A DNA stretch of 64,000 nt. It comes from Mesocentrotus franciscanus. Lineage: Eukaryota > Echinodermata > Echinoidea > Camarodonta > Strongylocentrotidae. Location: contig CP137672.1 in the NCBI GenBank assembly GCA_037976565.1, positions 35,604,737-35,668,736 on the forward strand, in the 5' to 3' direction. Made by a program: the position numbers and the translations under genes. The stretch's first letter is position 1. Each line of letters starts with the position of its first letter. Below the pieces are notes generated by a model. That model was not told the DNA's origin and did not search any database. It was given only the letters and a program-made list of their open reading frames with translations. This document shows, one piece after another, positions 1,768 through 58,581 of the stretch.

Positions 1768-3851
1768 TTGTTTGTTTGTTTGTTTGATTGGTTTTATTTC
1801 TGCGTTCAAAAAGATACAAATTCAAAGTCAAATTACAAAAATTCGAACAATAACAAATACAATGAATAACATGTTTACAAAAGTAATTAAATAGAAGGTC
1901 ATGTACAATTATATCATACAATAAACATGTACGAAGCATACACAAAAGATAACAAATACATAGTAAACTTTTTTCAATAAATTAGAGAGGTAATTTAGAA
2001 CGCAGGAGACGACCATCGTGAGCGGTTAGGCTGGAGATGGACGGTGGCCTCAAAAAAAAAAAAATTGGCGACATAACTCTCTTGGGAAAACATGAGTGAT
2101 CAAGTGGGTGCAGTGCAAGTGCAGGTGTGGGTGCAGAAAGCAGTTGCATGCTAAAGTATAAAATAAGTCACGGATTTATACTAATTTAAAGAGTGGGGAG
2201 CGTATGATTGTATTATTTTTCGCTTAAGTGTAGCTTTTAAGGAGTAGATGGTTGAACAGAACTTTATGTTGTCGGGAAAATTATTCCAAATGTCCGGACC
2301 AGAATGTCTAATAGATTTGTGATTTATTGATAATTTGGGATTTGTAAGGTGGAAGTTTCCAGATATGCGAGTAGGGTACGAATGAACAGAACTATTAAAC
2401 CTAAAAATGTTATCAAAGGATGGTGGAAGTTGATTATTAATGTACTTAAACATAATGACTGCTACTTGAATAGTGTTCAAATCGACAATTTTTAGTGTTT
2501 TAAGTTTTTAAATAAAGGATCAGTGTGAGCTAAGAAATGCGAACCTGTACAAATACGTATGGCCTTCTTTTGCAGTTTAAAAATAGAATTAATTTTTGTC
2601 GAACCACAATTTGCCCATACAATATTACAATATGTTATATACGGGAGAACTAGCGTATTTTAAAGTAGAAAGAAGGTTGCATGGGGTAGAAGAAACTTTA
2701 GCTTGGAGATTATTCCAATACTTTTGGAAATGGACATTGTAACGTGGTGTAAATGCTCATTCCAAGTCAAAGTTTCATCTATAAGTACTCCCAAAAACTT
2801 GGACTTAGTTTTCTTCTCTAGCAGCATATCATCGATTTTAATATATATCGGTGTATCTGTATTATGAAATGATGTTTAAAATACATGAAATGGGTCTTTT
2901 TTGTATTAAGAGAAAGTTTATTGGACTTAAACCAGTTTGATACTTTGTTAATTTCATAATTCAAAATATTGTTTAAAGAATTAAGGTCTTTATGAGAATA
3001 AAATATATTTGTGTCATCGGCAAATAAGAAAAAAGAAAAAAGGGGGATGTATTGATAATATCATTAACATAAAGAATAAATAATAGTGGACCTAAGATGG
3101 AGCCTTGAGGAACACCGCATTGAATCAAAAGAGGATCAGAATCATAACTATTGAATGTAACATATTGTTTTCTGTTTGTTAAATAATCTTTAAACCATAA
3201 GAGTGGCTGACCCCGAATTCCATAATGACTGAGTTTGGAGAGTAGAACAGTGTGATTGAGCGTATCGAATGCTTTACTCGAGTCACAGAATATACCTATA
3301 ACATGTTTTTTGTTAGCTATGGCACTTGTAATTTTGTCATAAATTTGAATTAATGCTAGGTCAGTTGAGTAATTTTTCCTGAAGCCATATTGATTTGAAT
3401 TGAGTATTTTGTGTTTAGTGATAAATTTATGTAGCCTATTATGAACGATTTTTTCTAAGACTTTGGATATACTTTGAAGTAGGGAAATTGGCCGATAGTT
3501 ACTAATTTCGTGGGGATCATTTTTTTTTAGAATGGGATTGACTTTAGCTATTTTTAATAGATCAGGGAAAACACCTTGTGATAACGAGTGATTAAATATG
3601 TGAGTTAAAGGCTTTGCAAGTTGGTAAATTATTTCTTTCAGGAGAGACATATTTATTTTATCGAAACCGTGAGATTTTGAGTTGTTAAGAGATTGGGTAA
3701 TACTAATAATTTCGCTAGGATTTGTCGGGTTTAAAAAGAGAGACTCTTGGTTTTTATTGGAAAGATAGTCTGTAAAGTGAGCGCGAGTTCTGTTAATTTT
3801 GCTGGCGAGTTCAGGGCCGATATTCGTAAAAAATGAATTAGTACAACTCTC
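1768..3851 (-). mobile_element. 5'-truncated non-LTR retrotransposon (LINE)
   Basis: On the minus strand a decayed reverse-transcriptase ORF is followed by about 410 bp of AT-rich 3' UTR. The element ends at 1768-1790 in a TTTG repeat (CAAA on the element strand), preceded by an AATAAA-like signal ('GAAATAAAACC'). A short tandem tail instead of long poly(A) is usual for several non-LTR clades. The 5' part (endonuclease, gag-like ORF1) is missing. Recognisable coding starts near 3840 and a stop lies at 3852-3854, a typical 5' truncation. Clade (CR1/L2, Jockey or relative) cannot be decided by eye. It is a dead copy. A T-run at about 2049-2062 interrupts the 3' UTR. Confidence 0.85.
2181..3851 (-). 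pseudogene. LINE reverse transcriptase, frameshifted remnant
   Basis: The reverse transcriptase would have copied LINE RNA at a nicked genomic target. From 3851 down to about 2973 the minus strand reads the fingers and palm: NYRPISLL (motif 1 region), a K..EKIVHNRL stretch, AFDTLNH (the catalytic A-box Asp) and GVPQGSILGPLLF (B-box). The frame continues upstream of the Met at 3650 to a stop at 3852, with FFTNIGPELASKI as the truncated start. The catalytic FADD box (C-box) lies at 3012-3023 but in another frame, because of an indel in the T-rich run just before it. At least one more frameshift follows, near 2870. The thumb motif FLGVLID (about 2770-2795) and a C-terminal block (2181-2480, IWNNFPDNIK region) remain readable. 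No active protein can be made. Confidence 0.88.
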
Positions 3852-48840: not shown

Positions 48841-49315
48841 GTTGGTCCAATCCTACGTTGTCCAAACTCCAGTTTGTCTACGTGTATCCACATTATGTCT
48901 CATAACAGTATGTCTATTTCCATCATGAGGCCGAATCATCATTTTGTCTGTATTTCACGTTATCAATATATAATGCCCCATTAGGCAATTATTTATTTAG
49001 TCTAAGTACCATTGTGTCTAATTCTCGAGATTGACAACTTACCTAAAATGCCGGATAGGGGTACGGACAGATTTGACATGGCACTTGAATACGAGACTTA
49101 ATATGCAGTATAATATGGAAACAGCCCAGTTGATCATCAGACCAAATAATGATTAGACTTCAAGAAATTCAAATAATCCGATCATTATACCATGTAGATA
49201 ATAGGCAAAATATTAAGAGCTATAAACCAGTTAGACAGACACTAGAAACACTGGGTATAGACGAACTTTGATAGGGCGAGCTGGATACGGGACAAATCGG
49301 AATTGGACCAAGGGA
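48841..49315. mobile_element. Foldback-like element with ~15 bp repeats
   Basis: The left end TTGGTCCAATCCTACG then TTGTCC (48842-48863) is matched by an inverted right end, TTGGTCCAATTCCGAT then TTGTCC, read on the minus strand from about 49311. Inside the left end GTCY recurs at 48845, 48860, 48876, (48897) and 48912, mostly 15-16 bp apart. At the right end GGAC/GGGAC are also 15 bp apart (49291 and 49306). No coding capacity. The arms are short and diverged, and no target duplication was found. Confidence 0.5.
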
Positions 49316-49457
49316 AATAAGCACGATAGACGGTACGCAATCAAATGATATGATTGATTTACCAATCAAAATAGGCAATACAAGTCATTGTAATATTTAC
49401 AACATTTTGAAAGATTCATACGAGTTAATCATGAAAAAGACCAGAAAAGATTGGTAC

Positions 49458-50779
49458 AGCCCCCATCACACCGAACAAGTTTTCACTACCTTCTGGAAAA
49501 TGTAGCCAAACGGGCTCAAACTGTGTGCAAACGGAGTTGAACTTAGTAGCAATTGTTTACAATCTGTTTAAGAACTTCATGGACGGGCTCGGACTGGGTA
49601 GTACGGGAGAGTGCTCTAGAACTTTGAGCTTGTTCAAAAATTGCCCCCGTCCTGCAATTAGACAGAGTGACAACGTACTTAAAACGAGGAGGACGTACTA
49701 CGAACGGACTGATTGCCGTACTATAAACGGAATTGCCGTGTTTCGATCCTACTAGGAACGTGTTACAACGTGTCGTGGTCGAGCATCAATTAGCAGCAGT
49801 ATAGCCCCCATCACACCAAACTAGTTCTCACTACGTTCTGGAACCGTCCTAAAAAATCGTAAAAACGGGTTGTGGTCGGAGTAGAATGTGTAAATAATGT
49901 CTATAATACTATCCTAGATCGTTCATAAACAGTCCTCAATACGTCCATCTCGTCAGTGAACAGTCAGTTCACACCAAGTTCAAATCGGGTAAATTTGCCC
50001 TTTCCAGGCAGTCCAAGCCCGTCCGTAATCAGTTTAAACCAGTTCTTATCCAGTTCTACCTCGTCCCAATACGTCCAAACCATTCTAACTAGTTCGCAAC
50101 TTGTTCTAACTACTAGTAGTTTGTAACCCGATCACCCCGTTCAGGGACAGTTCAACTCGTCCTCATCTCGTTCTTAGTACGTTCGAACGCACCCATATAG
50201 TGCGTGTGCAATCCCGTCCTGGGTCGAGGGCTATACAAACCCAGTGCGTTCTTGCCGTTCCTAATTTCCGTTCAATTATACTACTGCTAATTGATGCTCG
50301 ACCACGTCACGTTGTAACACGTTATTAGTAGGACCGAAGAACGGCAATTCCGTTCGTAGTACGTCCATCTCGTTTTAAGTATGTTGTCACTCCGTCTAAT
50401 TGCAGGACGGGGACTATTTTGAACAGGATCAAAGTTCAAGAGCACCCTTCCCGTCCAAGCCAGTCCGAGTCCGTCCATGAAGTTCTTAAACAGATCTTAA
50501 ACAGTTGCTACTACGTTCACTCCGTTCGCACACAGTTTGAGCCCGTTTGGCAACATTTTACAGAACGTAGTGGGAACTAGTTTGGTGTGATGGGGGCTTC
50601 ACTTGAATTTCTTGATCTGCACAGCTTGAAACGATGAAGTTGAACGGGAATGAGGAATGACAAGGACGCGCTGGGGTTGTATAACCCTTGAGCCAGGACG
50701 TGATCGCACACGCTTAGGAGCGCGATTTTCTAGGACGGTTCCAGAACGTAGTGAGAACTAGTTTGGTGTGATGGGGGCT
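49458..50779. mobile_element. Composite foldback DNA element with four termini
   Basis: The terminal motif AGCCCCCATCACACC appears four times: forward at 49458 and 49803, inverted ending at 50598 and 50779. Forward 49458-~49800 and inverted 50598-~50278 are long arms of about 320 bp, close to 88% alike by eye, so the block can fold into a large hairpin. The second pair (49803 and 50779) shares a longer terminus extending to GTTCTGGAACCGTCCTA. No transposase frame exists; the mirror-image ORFs 49525-49755 and 50287-50478 are the same arm read twice. No target duplication is visible at any end pair. By architecture it recalls sea-urchin foldback (TU-type) elements, but I cannot confirm relationship. 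Confidence 0.8.
49511..50545. repeat. Degenerate ~10.4 bp phased GTYC/GRAC array
   Basis: On the plus strand GTYC or a one-base variant starts at 49921, 49932, 49943, 49952 and 49963; then 50011, 50021, 50032, 50042, 50053, 50063, 50073, 50083, 50092 and 50103; then 50139, 50150, 50159, 50170 and 50181; and again at 50453, 50463, 50473, 50482, 50493, 50503, 50515, 50524, 50535 and 50545. In the left arm the complement GRAC is spaced likewise (49511, 49521, 49532, 49542; 49584, 49594, 49604). The 5-6 bases between motifs vary. This is a short-unit degenerate repeat whose period is close to one DNA turn. Confidence 0.7.
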
Positions 50780-53700
50780 TAAACTGGAACTAGAAAACAG
50801 CACCATATGAGAAAACAACTGGAGAAAAGACTGATGAGTTAAGATAATAATACTAATGATAATGGTGATAATAGTGGGTTCTTATTTAACACTCGTGTAA
50901 GTCAGACTTGACACTCCTGTCGCTCCACAATAAAGTTCAGAAATATGTTGTTTTCTAAATTCCAAGATTATTGACTGGTCATCATCCTGTCATGTTTTAA
51001 GCTCAATAATGATCGACGTGTCATCCATGTACCAACATATCGATGTATTACAACTGAGTGACCTTATCATTCCCACGTTAACTTGGTAACATCATTCATG
51101 AAGGAATCCGTGTGAAATCATGGAGATAAGAAGGAAGTACAGGGGTTTGCTAACCAATGACTCCGGGAATAAAACACACACTACGGTTTTTGTGTTACTT
51201 TTTGGGGGGATTAAACAGAATCCGAAATATTCACGTCGATTATATAACCCTTAGCAAATGTCATCTATTTTGTAATCGATTAATGGAAATTTAAGATGGC
51301 TTGAATTGTTCTGTCAGCTCCTGTTTATGGAAAACAAGAATAATTAAGTTATACTGTATATTCTGAGTTCGAATCTTTCCAAAAATAAGATATTATTCAC
51401 AATAACAATTTCACTTTCTGCTCAAAAGCACATTTGTACTGTTAAATGACACGAAAATATCTACCACAACTAACCGAGAAACATTTGAACTCAATCATAA
51501 CTGAATTTCTATCTCCAGAGTCTAAAAATGTGCATGAAATTGACAGGTTACATGACAATTTTTCAACTTCACCTTTTCAGTTATGTCATTCAATTGTTTT
51601 TCCCTCACTCGCAATGCTCACAAACTCAAGTATTTTCACGATGAATACATACAACAACACAATTAAAGAGTCTACACATTGATATAAAACGTCGGCAATG
51701 TTCCATTTTATGAGACATATCCTAAAATTCACTTTTAAACCTATCTGTATTTGGTATGGACTTATTTCATAGTGATCTTTGGGACCTTTGAGCGTAATAG
51801 CTACAAACAGTATAGTTTTAGCTTACCAAGCTGTCCGAGTAACTGCCATGACTTGGAATTTTCCTTCAAATATCCTACAAAAAGAAAGTCTACAAAGCTT
51901 AGGGGAATTGGTATAAAGTTGGAAAATTGCATGAAGTTATACTAGGCCTACCACATCATACAACCTCGTTTGGATTCATATCAAATCTCATCCAGATCAA
52001 TGCTACAGGGCCATTATATTGGTTATAATTATCATATTTTCCTTGCCTTCATCGTCAGCGCTCTCTTGTTTTACCCAAGGGCTGCAAATCAAATGATATT
52101 TCAAAACTGAAGATAAGAAATAAAGGAAAAAAGGTACACATATACAATTTCGTTTTGCTTTTCCAAGTTGGGAAGCTTTCTTGAGTCTTTTTAAAAAGCG
52201 CGATATACAAGAATTAACAAATTGGGCTCGAGCAGTCGTTGAATAAGAGAACATCGACCTCGGATCAAATTTTATTTTATTTGTTTGCAAATATTCCAGC
52301 TCCAGGCAAGTACTCGTGAACGTTATACTTGAGTTTTTAAACTTTTGAATGGAACTCAAGATATGAATGCATATATGATATCATGAAAAGAATTTTGAGA
52401 AGATTTTGTTTACCGCCAGTGGCAGTGATCTTGCAGATGATTCATAATTTCGATTATCAAAACAGATCTTTTAACAAAGCTGCTTTTTTTCCTACATATT
52501 CAAGGTCACTTAAGTTTGTACTGCGAAAAAATAATGCAATGAATCTTTGCACAGCATTTTAAAACATTTTTAATGTGTTTAGGATTATGTGTTAAGAAAG
52601 TTTGTAGGAAAAAAACACCCGTTACCAGATGAAAAGCTTGCCAGAGATTATAATCTGACTTGGTAACAATTGGGGAAAGTAAAATAATCATGAACTCATC
52701 ATTCCATAAGCTAGACAATTGGATGATTTAAATTTTACAAAATAATTATCAAAATACAAGCCCTACTCTTGAAACGACGCTCCGTAACTCAGGTTGTCAC
52801 AGTAAGCGATGGGGCCATTAAATTTCCAGACGCAATGCCCCCTAAGTCCCCCTGAAGATGACTTTCAAATGTTTCACCAGCCCCTGAGACACGTTCAATA
52901 CGGGGATAGGCAGAAATGCGTTTCCCAACACGGATTTTCGGAGGGGGGTATTGATGGGGGCACTGATGGGGGCACTTCTATAGATCTGCCTCTATGCTTG
53001 ATATGAAAATGAGAGGGGAACTCGAAGATATTTTGTGCTAAAGGTTACCGACTAAATCAAATATTTGTAGTATACCTGATGACTGTATAAAGATTATAGC
53101 CCTACCACAGCTAGGATCAGATTAATATCCAGGATAATGATACATTCGAATTTAATTATTTTTATTGTTCCAATGTCCTTGGTAACGTAAGGGACACATC
53201 AATACCAAATACTTTGGACGTGCTCAAGTACAAACAAACCCGCAGTGCTCAATAGACAGCATAATTATTTACATTGGAATTGTACTTTATTAATAACGAA
53301 TAATAAATAGTTGTAGTATTCACACGTGTGATTCCCAGGCGTCTATCATGACTAGATGTTCATTTCGCAATGAAAGGCGGAGACAATTTATTATACACAA
53401 TAGAGTACCGAAGTGCTCACGTCATATTCGCTCGTCGTTCAGGTTACTGGTTCCAAACAACAGAGCCTGCGCATGAAGTTCACCGCGACAACATTCAAGC
53501 AACGGGCTGGAGCAGGGCGAATTCAGTGTTTGGCGCTGGTGTGATCACCACGCCTAGTTTAGCACAATTTTTTTGTAACCAGCAACCTTGGCATCTTGGC
53601 TAATATGACGTCACACTTCGGTACTCTATATACATGTTTACTAATGTTTTTCAATTTATGCACGTTTCTCTCCCCAACCCTTAGTTACCAACTATCTTAT

Positions 53701-57409: not shown

Positions 57410-58581
57410 CAGGCGCGGCGATCCGGGGGACACGTCCCCTCAATTTTGTAGGGGTCCCCCCCCCCTTTGAACATTTGAAAAAGTGCAAAAAAAAAGGTAT
57501 AGCAAATACTGACTAAAGGCTGCAACACACATTTAGGCTCTGGAGGGCTCAAGAGTGCAGTGTTTAGACAGCTAAAAATGCAAAAATCTTCTCGCTCGGG
57601 AGCTATGCTCCCTCGCTTAATTTCCTTCAAAATGTCTAAGTAAATATTGTAGAGAAGTGAAGTGTGAAAAAGTATATTGCTTGTTTTTATACTGTAGTCT
57701 AGTTTTGCTAAGGTTTGTAATTTTTTAATATAACACAACTTCAATAACCTGTGAGGGGGTAGTCACTTCCGTCACCTTTACCCCACTCGTTCACAATGCT
57801 CCCTCGCACTTGCGTACTGATGGGGAGGGGGCTTGAGGGCAGTTCCCCCCAAATAAAACTCAAACGGGGTTTATTTCTAATTCGATACCAGTGATCTACA
57901 AATGTTGCTGAAATGGCATGATTTTTCCCTGAGCTTCCGGGGGCTCTGCCCCCTCGACCCCACCAAGGGCCCTAAGGCGGACCCCTGGTTGCTCATCTGA
58001 CCGTAATTAAATGCCTAAAACCCCTGACCTTCCGGGGGCTCCGCCCCCTAGACCCCACCAGGGCCCTAAGGCGGCCCCTGGATGCTCATATGACCGTTAT
58101 TACTTGCCTAAAACCCCTGACCTTCCGGGGGCTCTGCCCCCTGGACCCCACCAAGGGCCCTAAGGTGGCCCCTGGATGCTTATCTGATCGTCATTTAATG
58201 CCTAAAACCCTTGAGTTTCTGAGGGCTCCGCACCCTGGACCCCGATCCAATTAGTGACCTGCGTGCCACTGTCACAAATAAGGTATCAAGATATGCTCAT
58301 CTCACCGTAATTAAATGCCTTAAACCCCTGAGCTTCATGGGGCTCTGCCCCTTGACCCCCGCCGGGGCTTTGCCCCTGGACCCCACGTCAATTTTAAATA
58401 CTTTAGCCCCCCTCCCCACTTTGAAAAACGTTGCGCGGGGCCTGCATGTAACATGTAAGAGTGGTGGTGATGCGGATTTTTTCTGCCCCCCCCCTCCAAT
58501 AAACGTTTTTGTTCATTACGCCACTGTCCCTTGTCCCTCGCATTTCGTCCCCCCGGTCATGAAAAGAAATCGCCGCCCCTG
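57410..58581. mobile_element. hAT-like non-autonomous DNA element
   Basis: The left end CAGGCGCGGCGATCC (57410) and the reverse complement of the right end, CAGGGGCGGCGATTT (58581), agree at 12 of 15 positions. CAG(N)GGCG termini are characteristic of hAT transposons. Subterminal GGGGGAC words occur in both arms. A further CAGTGGCGTAAT terminus, inverted, lies at about 58524-58535, so one element may be nested in another. No 8 bp target duplication is evident (GAGTAATT versus GTTTGGTT). The interior is mostly the GC-rich tandem array. Frames at 57409-57744 and 58337-58660 do not resemble transposases. Confidence 0.55.
57931..58400. repeat. GC-rich tandem repeat, ~94 bp unit, five copies
   Basis: GAGCTTCCGGGGGCTCTGCC and variants begin at 57931, 58026, 58119, 58213 and 58330 (spacings 95, 93, 94 and 117 bp). 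Each unit has an inverted GGGGGC..GCCCCC hairpin, then GACCCCACC, CCCTAAGG and a TGACCGT.ATTA.TGCCTAAA link. The fourth unit is diverged and carries an insertion, and the last is partial. It is the most GC-rich block of the window. Confidence 0.88.

Follow-up and report, generated by a model that had tools for sequence, protein, structure and literature searches.

The feature of interest lies at positions 49458–50779 (- strand) of the window, by which we mean the whole stretch of 64,000 nucleotides that was analyzed. Its repeats and its copies elsewhere in the genome identify it as a whole element of the terminal-inverted-repeat type that is non-coding, non-autonomous and nested in itself. All four module ends in the window have a terminal repeat of 41–42 bp in common, and long inverted arms (pairs of 93, 80, 72 and 71 nt at 88–92%, plus others) are able to fold back. 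The copy in the window represents the full form in reversed orientation, with approximately 320 bp absent from the outer B module. A first-pass annotation had described a motif array within a foldback element at 49511–50545; the array is indeed found there, but the true span of the element is the one given above. The element has the following parts:

49458–49803, - strand: outer A' module of 345 bp, A[1-345], with the complement (GRAC) array, 18 units on the - strand
49803–50275, + strand: inner B module, B[1-473], with GTYC stretches at 49921–49981, 50011–50106 and 50139–50184
50277–50599, + strand: inner A module, an inverted copy of 49458–49803, with a GTYC array at 50453–50545
50640–50779, - strand: remains of the outer B module, B[400-473] at 50640–50713 and B[1-57] at 50723–50779, the middle being deleted
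49458–49498, + strand: terminal repeat 1 (outer, A type), outside trinucleotide TAC
49803–49843, + strand: terminal repeat 2 (inner, B type), with three array units 11 bp apart at 49819, 49830 and 49841
50558–50598, - strand: terminal repeat 3 (inner, A type)
50739–50779, - strand: terminal repeat 4 (outer, B type), outside trinucleotide TAA
49819–50549, + strand: polar array of 10–11 bp units AnYnMGTYCn, one unbroken chain in the scan with the family model

An Rfam search of 49300–50900 returned no match, and a 28-base piece of the terminal repeat was absent from IMG/VR and from bacterial and archaeal contigs, where animal genomes are not expected. Elsewhere in the window, a reverse-transcriptase frame of 292 aa at 2973–3851 (- strand; Pfam RVT_1, E 9e-26; 7537 matching database proteins) is a retrotransposon remnant. 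Tandem repeats were detected at 409–1198 (151 bp unit, 5.3 copies, 93%) and 57927–58243 (94 bp unit, 3.4 copies, 87%).

The recurrence of GTYC at steps of 10–11 bp was present where the first-pass annotation had placed it. GTYC occurs 32 times in 49900–50545 and forms 14 pairs 10 or 11 bp apart, compared to a mean of 0.39 and a maximum of 3 in 500 dinucleotide-preserving shuffles of the same region. The Fourier analysis against shuffled sequence that had been proposed as a check yielded a GTYC peak at 10.8 bp in 49803–50276, whose power of 11.7 exceeded all 300 shuffles (≤7.2); the two A arms alone failed this test (4.99 and 3.39 vs. 99% shuffle levels of 5.19 and 5.26). Independently of GTYC, a unit model built by segmentation and re-estimation, which was started from random 10-mers of the sequence itself, placed 50 units in 49804–50598 with a score of 185.7 (40 shuffles: mean 74.5, maximum 85.1) and 36 chained steps of 10.47 bp on average. 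On the other strand of the opposite arm, 49458–49803, it placed 18 units (score 68.2; maximum of 40 shuffles 49.5) with 11 chained steps of 10.36 bp on average, which confirms the complementary GRAC array that had been described for this arm and that is present there because the arm is an inverted copy. The proposed average step of about 10.4 bp is thus met by both means and by the value of 10.43 bp for the family monomer, far above chance. When applied to 40 random 795-bp pieces from elsewhere in the window, the unit model reached a mean score of 72.8, with one piece at 170.5 and the rest at or below about 110. When the family model was run over the entire window, only this element scored (106.5, 37.1 and 14.5; maximum of 6 whole-window shuffles 11.4); as the family itself had supplied the training data, this shows just that the window holds no second such array. 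In the output of Tandem Repeats Finder (score 40), the element was represented by only one 2-copy row (50484–50504).

The start of the terminal repeat, AGCCCCCATCACACC, has 751 exact occurrences (368 forward and 383 reverse) in the 773 Mb and 21 contigs of the genome searched, vs. 0 and 0 for a control with the reversed pattern. We fetched 74 family loci (8+20+16+30) and dropped 14 repeats, leaving 60 that were used together with the window stretch. Two of the 60 still duplicate the place of another (L069 = L053 and L070 = L057), segmental duplicates were kept, e.g. two in L033, and the loci are not a random sample because they were chosen by likeness to the window copy. Module B comprises about 470 bp and module A about 345 bp; both carry the same 41–42 bp terminal repeat outermost and differ in sequence beyond it. 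The fullest copy obtained, L039 (1643 bp), has the order B, 40-bp spacer, A, inverted B', inverted A', which is the layout of a monomer (B then A') into whose B/A' junction a second, inverted copy has been set. In L034, L054 and L017 this junction is unbroken. The anatomy together with the uninterrupted junctions shows that the foldback arises by self-insertion: an inverted copy of the monomer inside itself results in a foldback structure. Of 15 distinct nested sites, 8 had gained 3 bp and 7 had gained 2 bp when compared with at least one unbroken copy, and other alignments had a surplus of 8–12 bp where the empty copy has a deletion of its own; the surplus bases do not form a clean duplication. 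Among 35 copies with both ends, 11 measured 1238–1288 bp and 9 measured 1606–1681 bp, and in the shorter form B' has lost its outer part and A' its inner part. None of the fetched loci contained a full monomer standing on its own. At L028 726–744, two family elements abut with one TTA common to their terminal repeats, which is an insertion at the flank of an older copy. Two copies in L033 (2031 and 8964), 6.9 kb apart, have identical flanks and therefore represent a segmental duplication that carried the element along.

For analysis of the array across the family, an 819-bp majority sequence of the monomer was built from 95 B and 73 A rows; these rows count two loci twice (L069/L053 and L070/L057), and the array, phase and simulation tests rest on this sequence. 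It contains 55 units of the form AnYnMGTYCn with a score of 237, while 60 shuffles reached at most 91.5, and unbiased seeds recovered the same motif (208.5 vs. ≤96.6 in 20 shuffles). The 44 chained steps were distributed over 11 bp (24), 10 bp (12), 9 bp (7) and 12 bp (1) with a mean of 10.43 bp, and the information per unit position ranged from 0.12 to 1.96 bits. A repeat of 21-bp dimers was rejected, as the similarity of units two apart did not exceed that of neighbours (0.438 vs. 0.479). All 55 units have the same orientation, running from the B end of the monomer towards its A end. The first three are located inside the B-end terminal repeat, and the array meets the A-end terminal repeat tail to tail because that repeat is inverted. 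This polarity is an addition to the earlier description. Sub-repeats arranged symmetrically from both ends, as in foldback-type elements, were not found in the monomer with its one-way array; the symmetry of the composite exists because the inner copy is inverted. If the array simply served to bring the two ends together, an inverted arrangement between the ends would be expected, and the one-way layout speaks against such a role, although the composite shows the array to both ends. The proposal in the first-pass annotation that a row of proteins binds one face of the helix agrees with the phase coherence within chains of 4–18 units (R 0.93–0.99), but over the whole monomer the phase (R 0.51) was not better than with permuted steps (null mean 0.56).

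The insertion sites point to a probable superfamily. TWA was found on both sides in 29 of 35 copies, and TWA is the usual target of Harbinger elements. The terminal-repeat length of 41–42 bp falls in the Harbinger range of 25–50 bp. The flanking trinucleotides were identical in 16 of the 35 copies, one of them GTA/GTA, which does not exceed the agreement obtained after re-pairing the flanks (mean 12.7; equalled or surpassed in 258 of 2000). The middle base of TWA was uncorrelated between the sides (15 of 29 agree; examples of such copies are L010, L014, L022 and L074), a pattern that would be unexpected if both sides were copies of a single target. Spy elements insert without target-site duplication, and a Spy-like insertion was considered after the flanks had failed to correlate; it was dropped because empty sites show a gain of 3 bp. 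This gain was observed at the nested site of L040 in 87 of 91 alignments to unbroken family sequence, which are not independent of each other, and at the L028 site in the single alignment. Pairs that were judged mispaired or ambiguous gave other values: the junction in L071 (1443–2707) had a surplus of 8 bp relative to the family sequence in 53 of 54 alignments for one pairing, L040 4231–5658 had -19 in 17 of 18, the outer pair of L041 had 5 and 4, and L065 had 0. A 3-bp TWA target duplication, and with it membership in PIF/Harbinger, is likely.

The search for an autonomous relative, also proposed with the first-pass annotation, did not yield one. The transposase domain DDE_Tnp_4 is present in the genome with at least 152 matches (150 of 716 candidates were scored), and among the 100 of 751 places listed none of these matches lies inside a terminal-repeat pair. 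The one long (+ then -) terminal-repeat pair noticed among these places, C2:8862672–8873305, is, judging by 1.2 kb read from each end, an ordinary shortened copy with a large insert and flanks TTA/TTA; the one 85-aa frame scanned in the insert had no Pfam match, and a DDE_Tnp_4 match at C2:8880128 falls outside the pair. From the frames of at least 80 aa in the fetched loci, of which the 30 longest were considered, six outside family sequence were scanned against Pfam. They matched reverse-transcriptase, SRCR, TIR-domain and V-set (below cut-off) families, one was without match, and there was no transposase among the six.

Two explanations of the array are about equally likely: a docking array of a self-nested MITE, which we hold tentatively as the joint best explanation, and a minisatellite without function. 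According to the former, the family is a high-copy, non-coding, MITE-like DNA transposon that is most likely moved in trans by a PIF/Harbinger-type transposase and that, after insertion into an inverted copy of itself, was amplified as a composite. Its body is the polar tandem array, whose 10–11 bp unit also makes up the inner portion of the terminal repeat, and the array most likely arose by tandem expansion of the unit inward from the B end. In source elements, the array may have been loosely kept as a docking row for a DNA-binding protein on one helix face in stretches of 4–18 units. The docking protein could be one that belongs to the transposon, either Myb-like or the transposase, or it could be supplied by the host. 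The competing explanation, on which we place about the same tentative weight, is that an old 10–11 bp minisatellite without function in a MITE expanded through slippage, then decayed and travelled with the transposing element, and that its match to the helical repeat is accidental.

The tests of whether the spacing was selected point in both directions. Successive steps were anti-correlated (lag-1 r = -0.41, found in 0.7% of permutations and in 0.9% with a flat step prior), and 26 of 35 two-step sums equal 20 or 21 bp; an anti-correlation is as a lattice would give. We compared this with neutral simulations with independent steps and neutral decay at three decay rates, 60 each, evaluated with the same unit model. 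An r of -0.41 was reached by 2, 2 and 7 of 60 simulations, 2, 4 and 2 were as uneven across unit positions as observed, and 3, 2 and 1 matched the most informative unit position. The least informative position was unremarkable (18, 26 and 18 of 60 as low), and in earlier simulations with 12 per rate the largest unevenness was 0.72, 0.85 and 0.88 vs. 0.75 observed. The evidence for selected spacing, consisting of the step anti-correlation (p about 0.01–0.1) and the uneven unit positions, is suggestive only. The first-pass annotation held that spacing had been kept more than the bases, and proposed an alignment of genomic copies as a check. The common core AnYnMGTYCn and the anti-correlated steps speak for this claim, but private changes across copies were nearly equal in core (459/16986 = 2.7%) and spacer (759/24814 = 3.1%). 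Therefore, for young changes, the copies come close to the outcome that had been named as contradicting the claim, i.e. spacers as conserved as the motif. For changes shared by at least 12% of rows, column frequencies were used instead of clustering, which had left every B row and 75 of the 76 A rows together in one cluster. Columns with shared changes were fewer in the core (12/220 vs. 32/321 in the spacer, p 0.077; 8/180 vs. 28/278 without CpG columns, p 0.033); scaled by the private rate, the deficit was not significant (p 0.20, and 0.11 without CpG columns). The core/spacer and indel counts were made without double counting of L069/L053 and L070/L057. Present copies decay with little or no constraint.

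Near-equal decay of core and spacer after insertion, the non-significant difference of the older changes once scaled, the lack of whole-monomer phase and the ordinary least informative position argue against docking, which is further weakened because a polar array does not present the same face to both ends and because neither a binding protein nor an autonomous partner was found. The same near-equal private change and lack of long-range phase favour the minisatellite, which the first-pass annotation had named as its null hypothesis, and so does an excess of unit-sized deletions (22 of 48 vs. 11 expected with flat lengths), which is what repeat slippage alone would give; MITEs with minisatellites are also known (PMC4596501). 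However, unit-sized insertions (2 of 20) were not beyond chance, the steps mix 9, 10 and 11 bp and anti-correlate, and the unit positions are more uneven than in 52–58 of 60 neutral simulations at each rate. The units do follow head to tail as in a minisatellite, but with steps of 9–12 bp and positions that are unevenly alike. It is improbable that the periodicity instead sets nucleosome rotation or DNA curvature without base-by-base reading, a possibility of which the first-pass annotation had raised the nucleosome part. In the monomer, WW and SS power was slightly elevated (reached by 29 and 8 of 300 shuffles), the two being offset by 4.3 bp, the curvature predicted from wedge angles was also slightly elevated (shuffles that matched it: monomer maximum 5/200, monomer mean 25/200, mean of 103–383 10/200), and nucleosome effects on a Harbinger MITE have been discussed (PMC9921582). 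This periodicity is weak, however, and the best array, 201–383, was at shuffle level for WW and SS (99 and 163 of 300 as high), as was 567–769 of the monomer (54 and 252 of 300); the periodic signal resides in GTYC. We give practically no credence to a relic of coiled-coil coding sequence with 3.5 codons per period, even though 10.5 nt correspond to half a heptad and stop-to-stop frames of 166 aa (L042) and 156 aa (L037) lie mostly in family sequence: both frames are without Pfam match, no stop-to-stop frame of at least 120 aa overlaps the element in the window, the unit itself yields TAG and TAA (AACTAGTTCTAA), and steps of 9, 10 and 11 break the frame. An extension of the docking array, built on analogy with plasmid partition iterons and in our estimation rather unlikely, is that the monomer might serve as a polar track in phase with the helix, with about 50 weak sites along which a DNA-binding protein of the transposon or the host would assemble into a one-sided nucleoprotein filament. 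If so, the polarity would do work, e.g. if the protein loaded at one end and were delivered to the opposite one, and the track could explain the strong amplification of a self-inverted composite that shows it to both ends.

In comparison with known systems, this is an element of an ordinary kind with an unusual body. Harbinger transposons are described as having terminal repeats of 25–50 bp, 3-bp duplications and a Myb-like protein that binds these repeats (PMC9179366). The 41–42 bp ends, the TWA targets and the 3-bp gain resemble Tourist-like MITEs of the PIF/Harbinger group such as mPing; the family differs from these in its flanks, which match in no more than 16 of 35 copies, in its body, a polar array with a period of 10.4 bp, and in that the places listed above revealed no transposase partner. 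Internal regions of mPing affect its mobility, and nucleosomes and multiple sites like those of TnpA are discussed in this context (PMC9921582).

The long inverted arms with internal tandem repeats are a likeness to Galileo, FB, Tetris and Tm1. FB arms carry 10-, 20- and 31-bp repeats. The arms of Tm1 consist of 13–15 bp repeats (PMC3169594), and Tetris (PMC4079207) is of the same general build. For Galileo, extra THAP sites in the long arms were reported, and its authors suggest that the tandem repeats of foldback-like elements confer binding specificity (PMC3688188). In contrast to foldback-type elements, the arms here come from self-insertion, the repeats run one way through the monomer and the unit measures 10–11 bp; the target duplication of Tm1 is 8–10 bp vs. 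about 3 bp here. Among the matches listed in an open-access search, we found no literature tying transposon repeats to helical phasing and no paper using the term foldback (TU) element for sea urchins.

Further likenesses concern the possible mode of action or the layout. In plasmid partition by ParR/parC, 11-bp direct iterons are read by a filament-forming protein. As direct repeats near the helical repeat they compare with the present array in how they may work, and no relation is claimed. The BrickBuilt MITE also has a tandem array between short inverted ends, but is described as bacterial with a spacerless 23-bp minisatellite unit (PMC4596501). Maize Spm/En has many TnpA sites in its terminal repeats, which are thought to unite the ends (cited in PMC9921582); the likeness is one of possible function, as Spm/En belongs to another superfamily and its protein is known, whereas here the protein is a candidate. 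It has long been suspected, and for Galileo shown (PMC3688188), that the repeats of such foldback-type elements hold extra protein sites, and the question is whether their spacing matters. A high-copy family whose body is mostly a helix-phased motif offers a natural test, since its many copies, and those of sister species, allow scoring of cores, spacers and steps, and its self-nested composite illustrates how a small MITE can turn into a foldback element in a simple manner.
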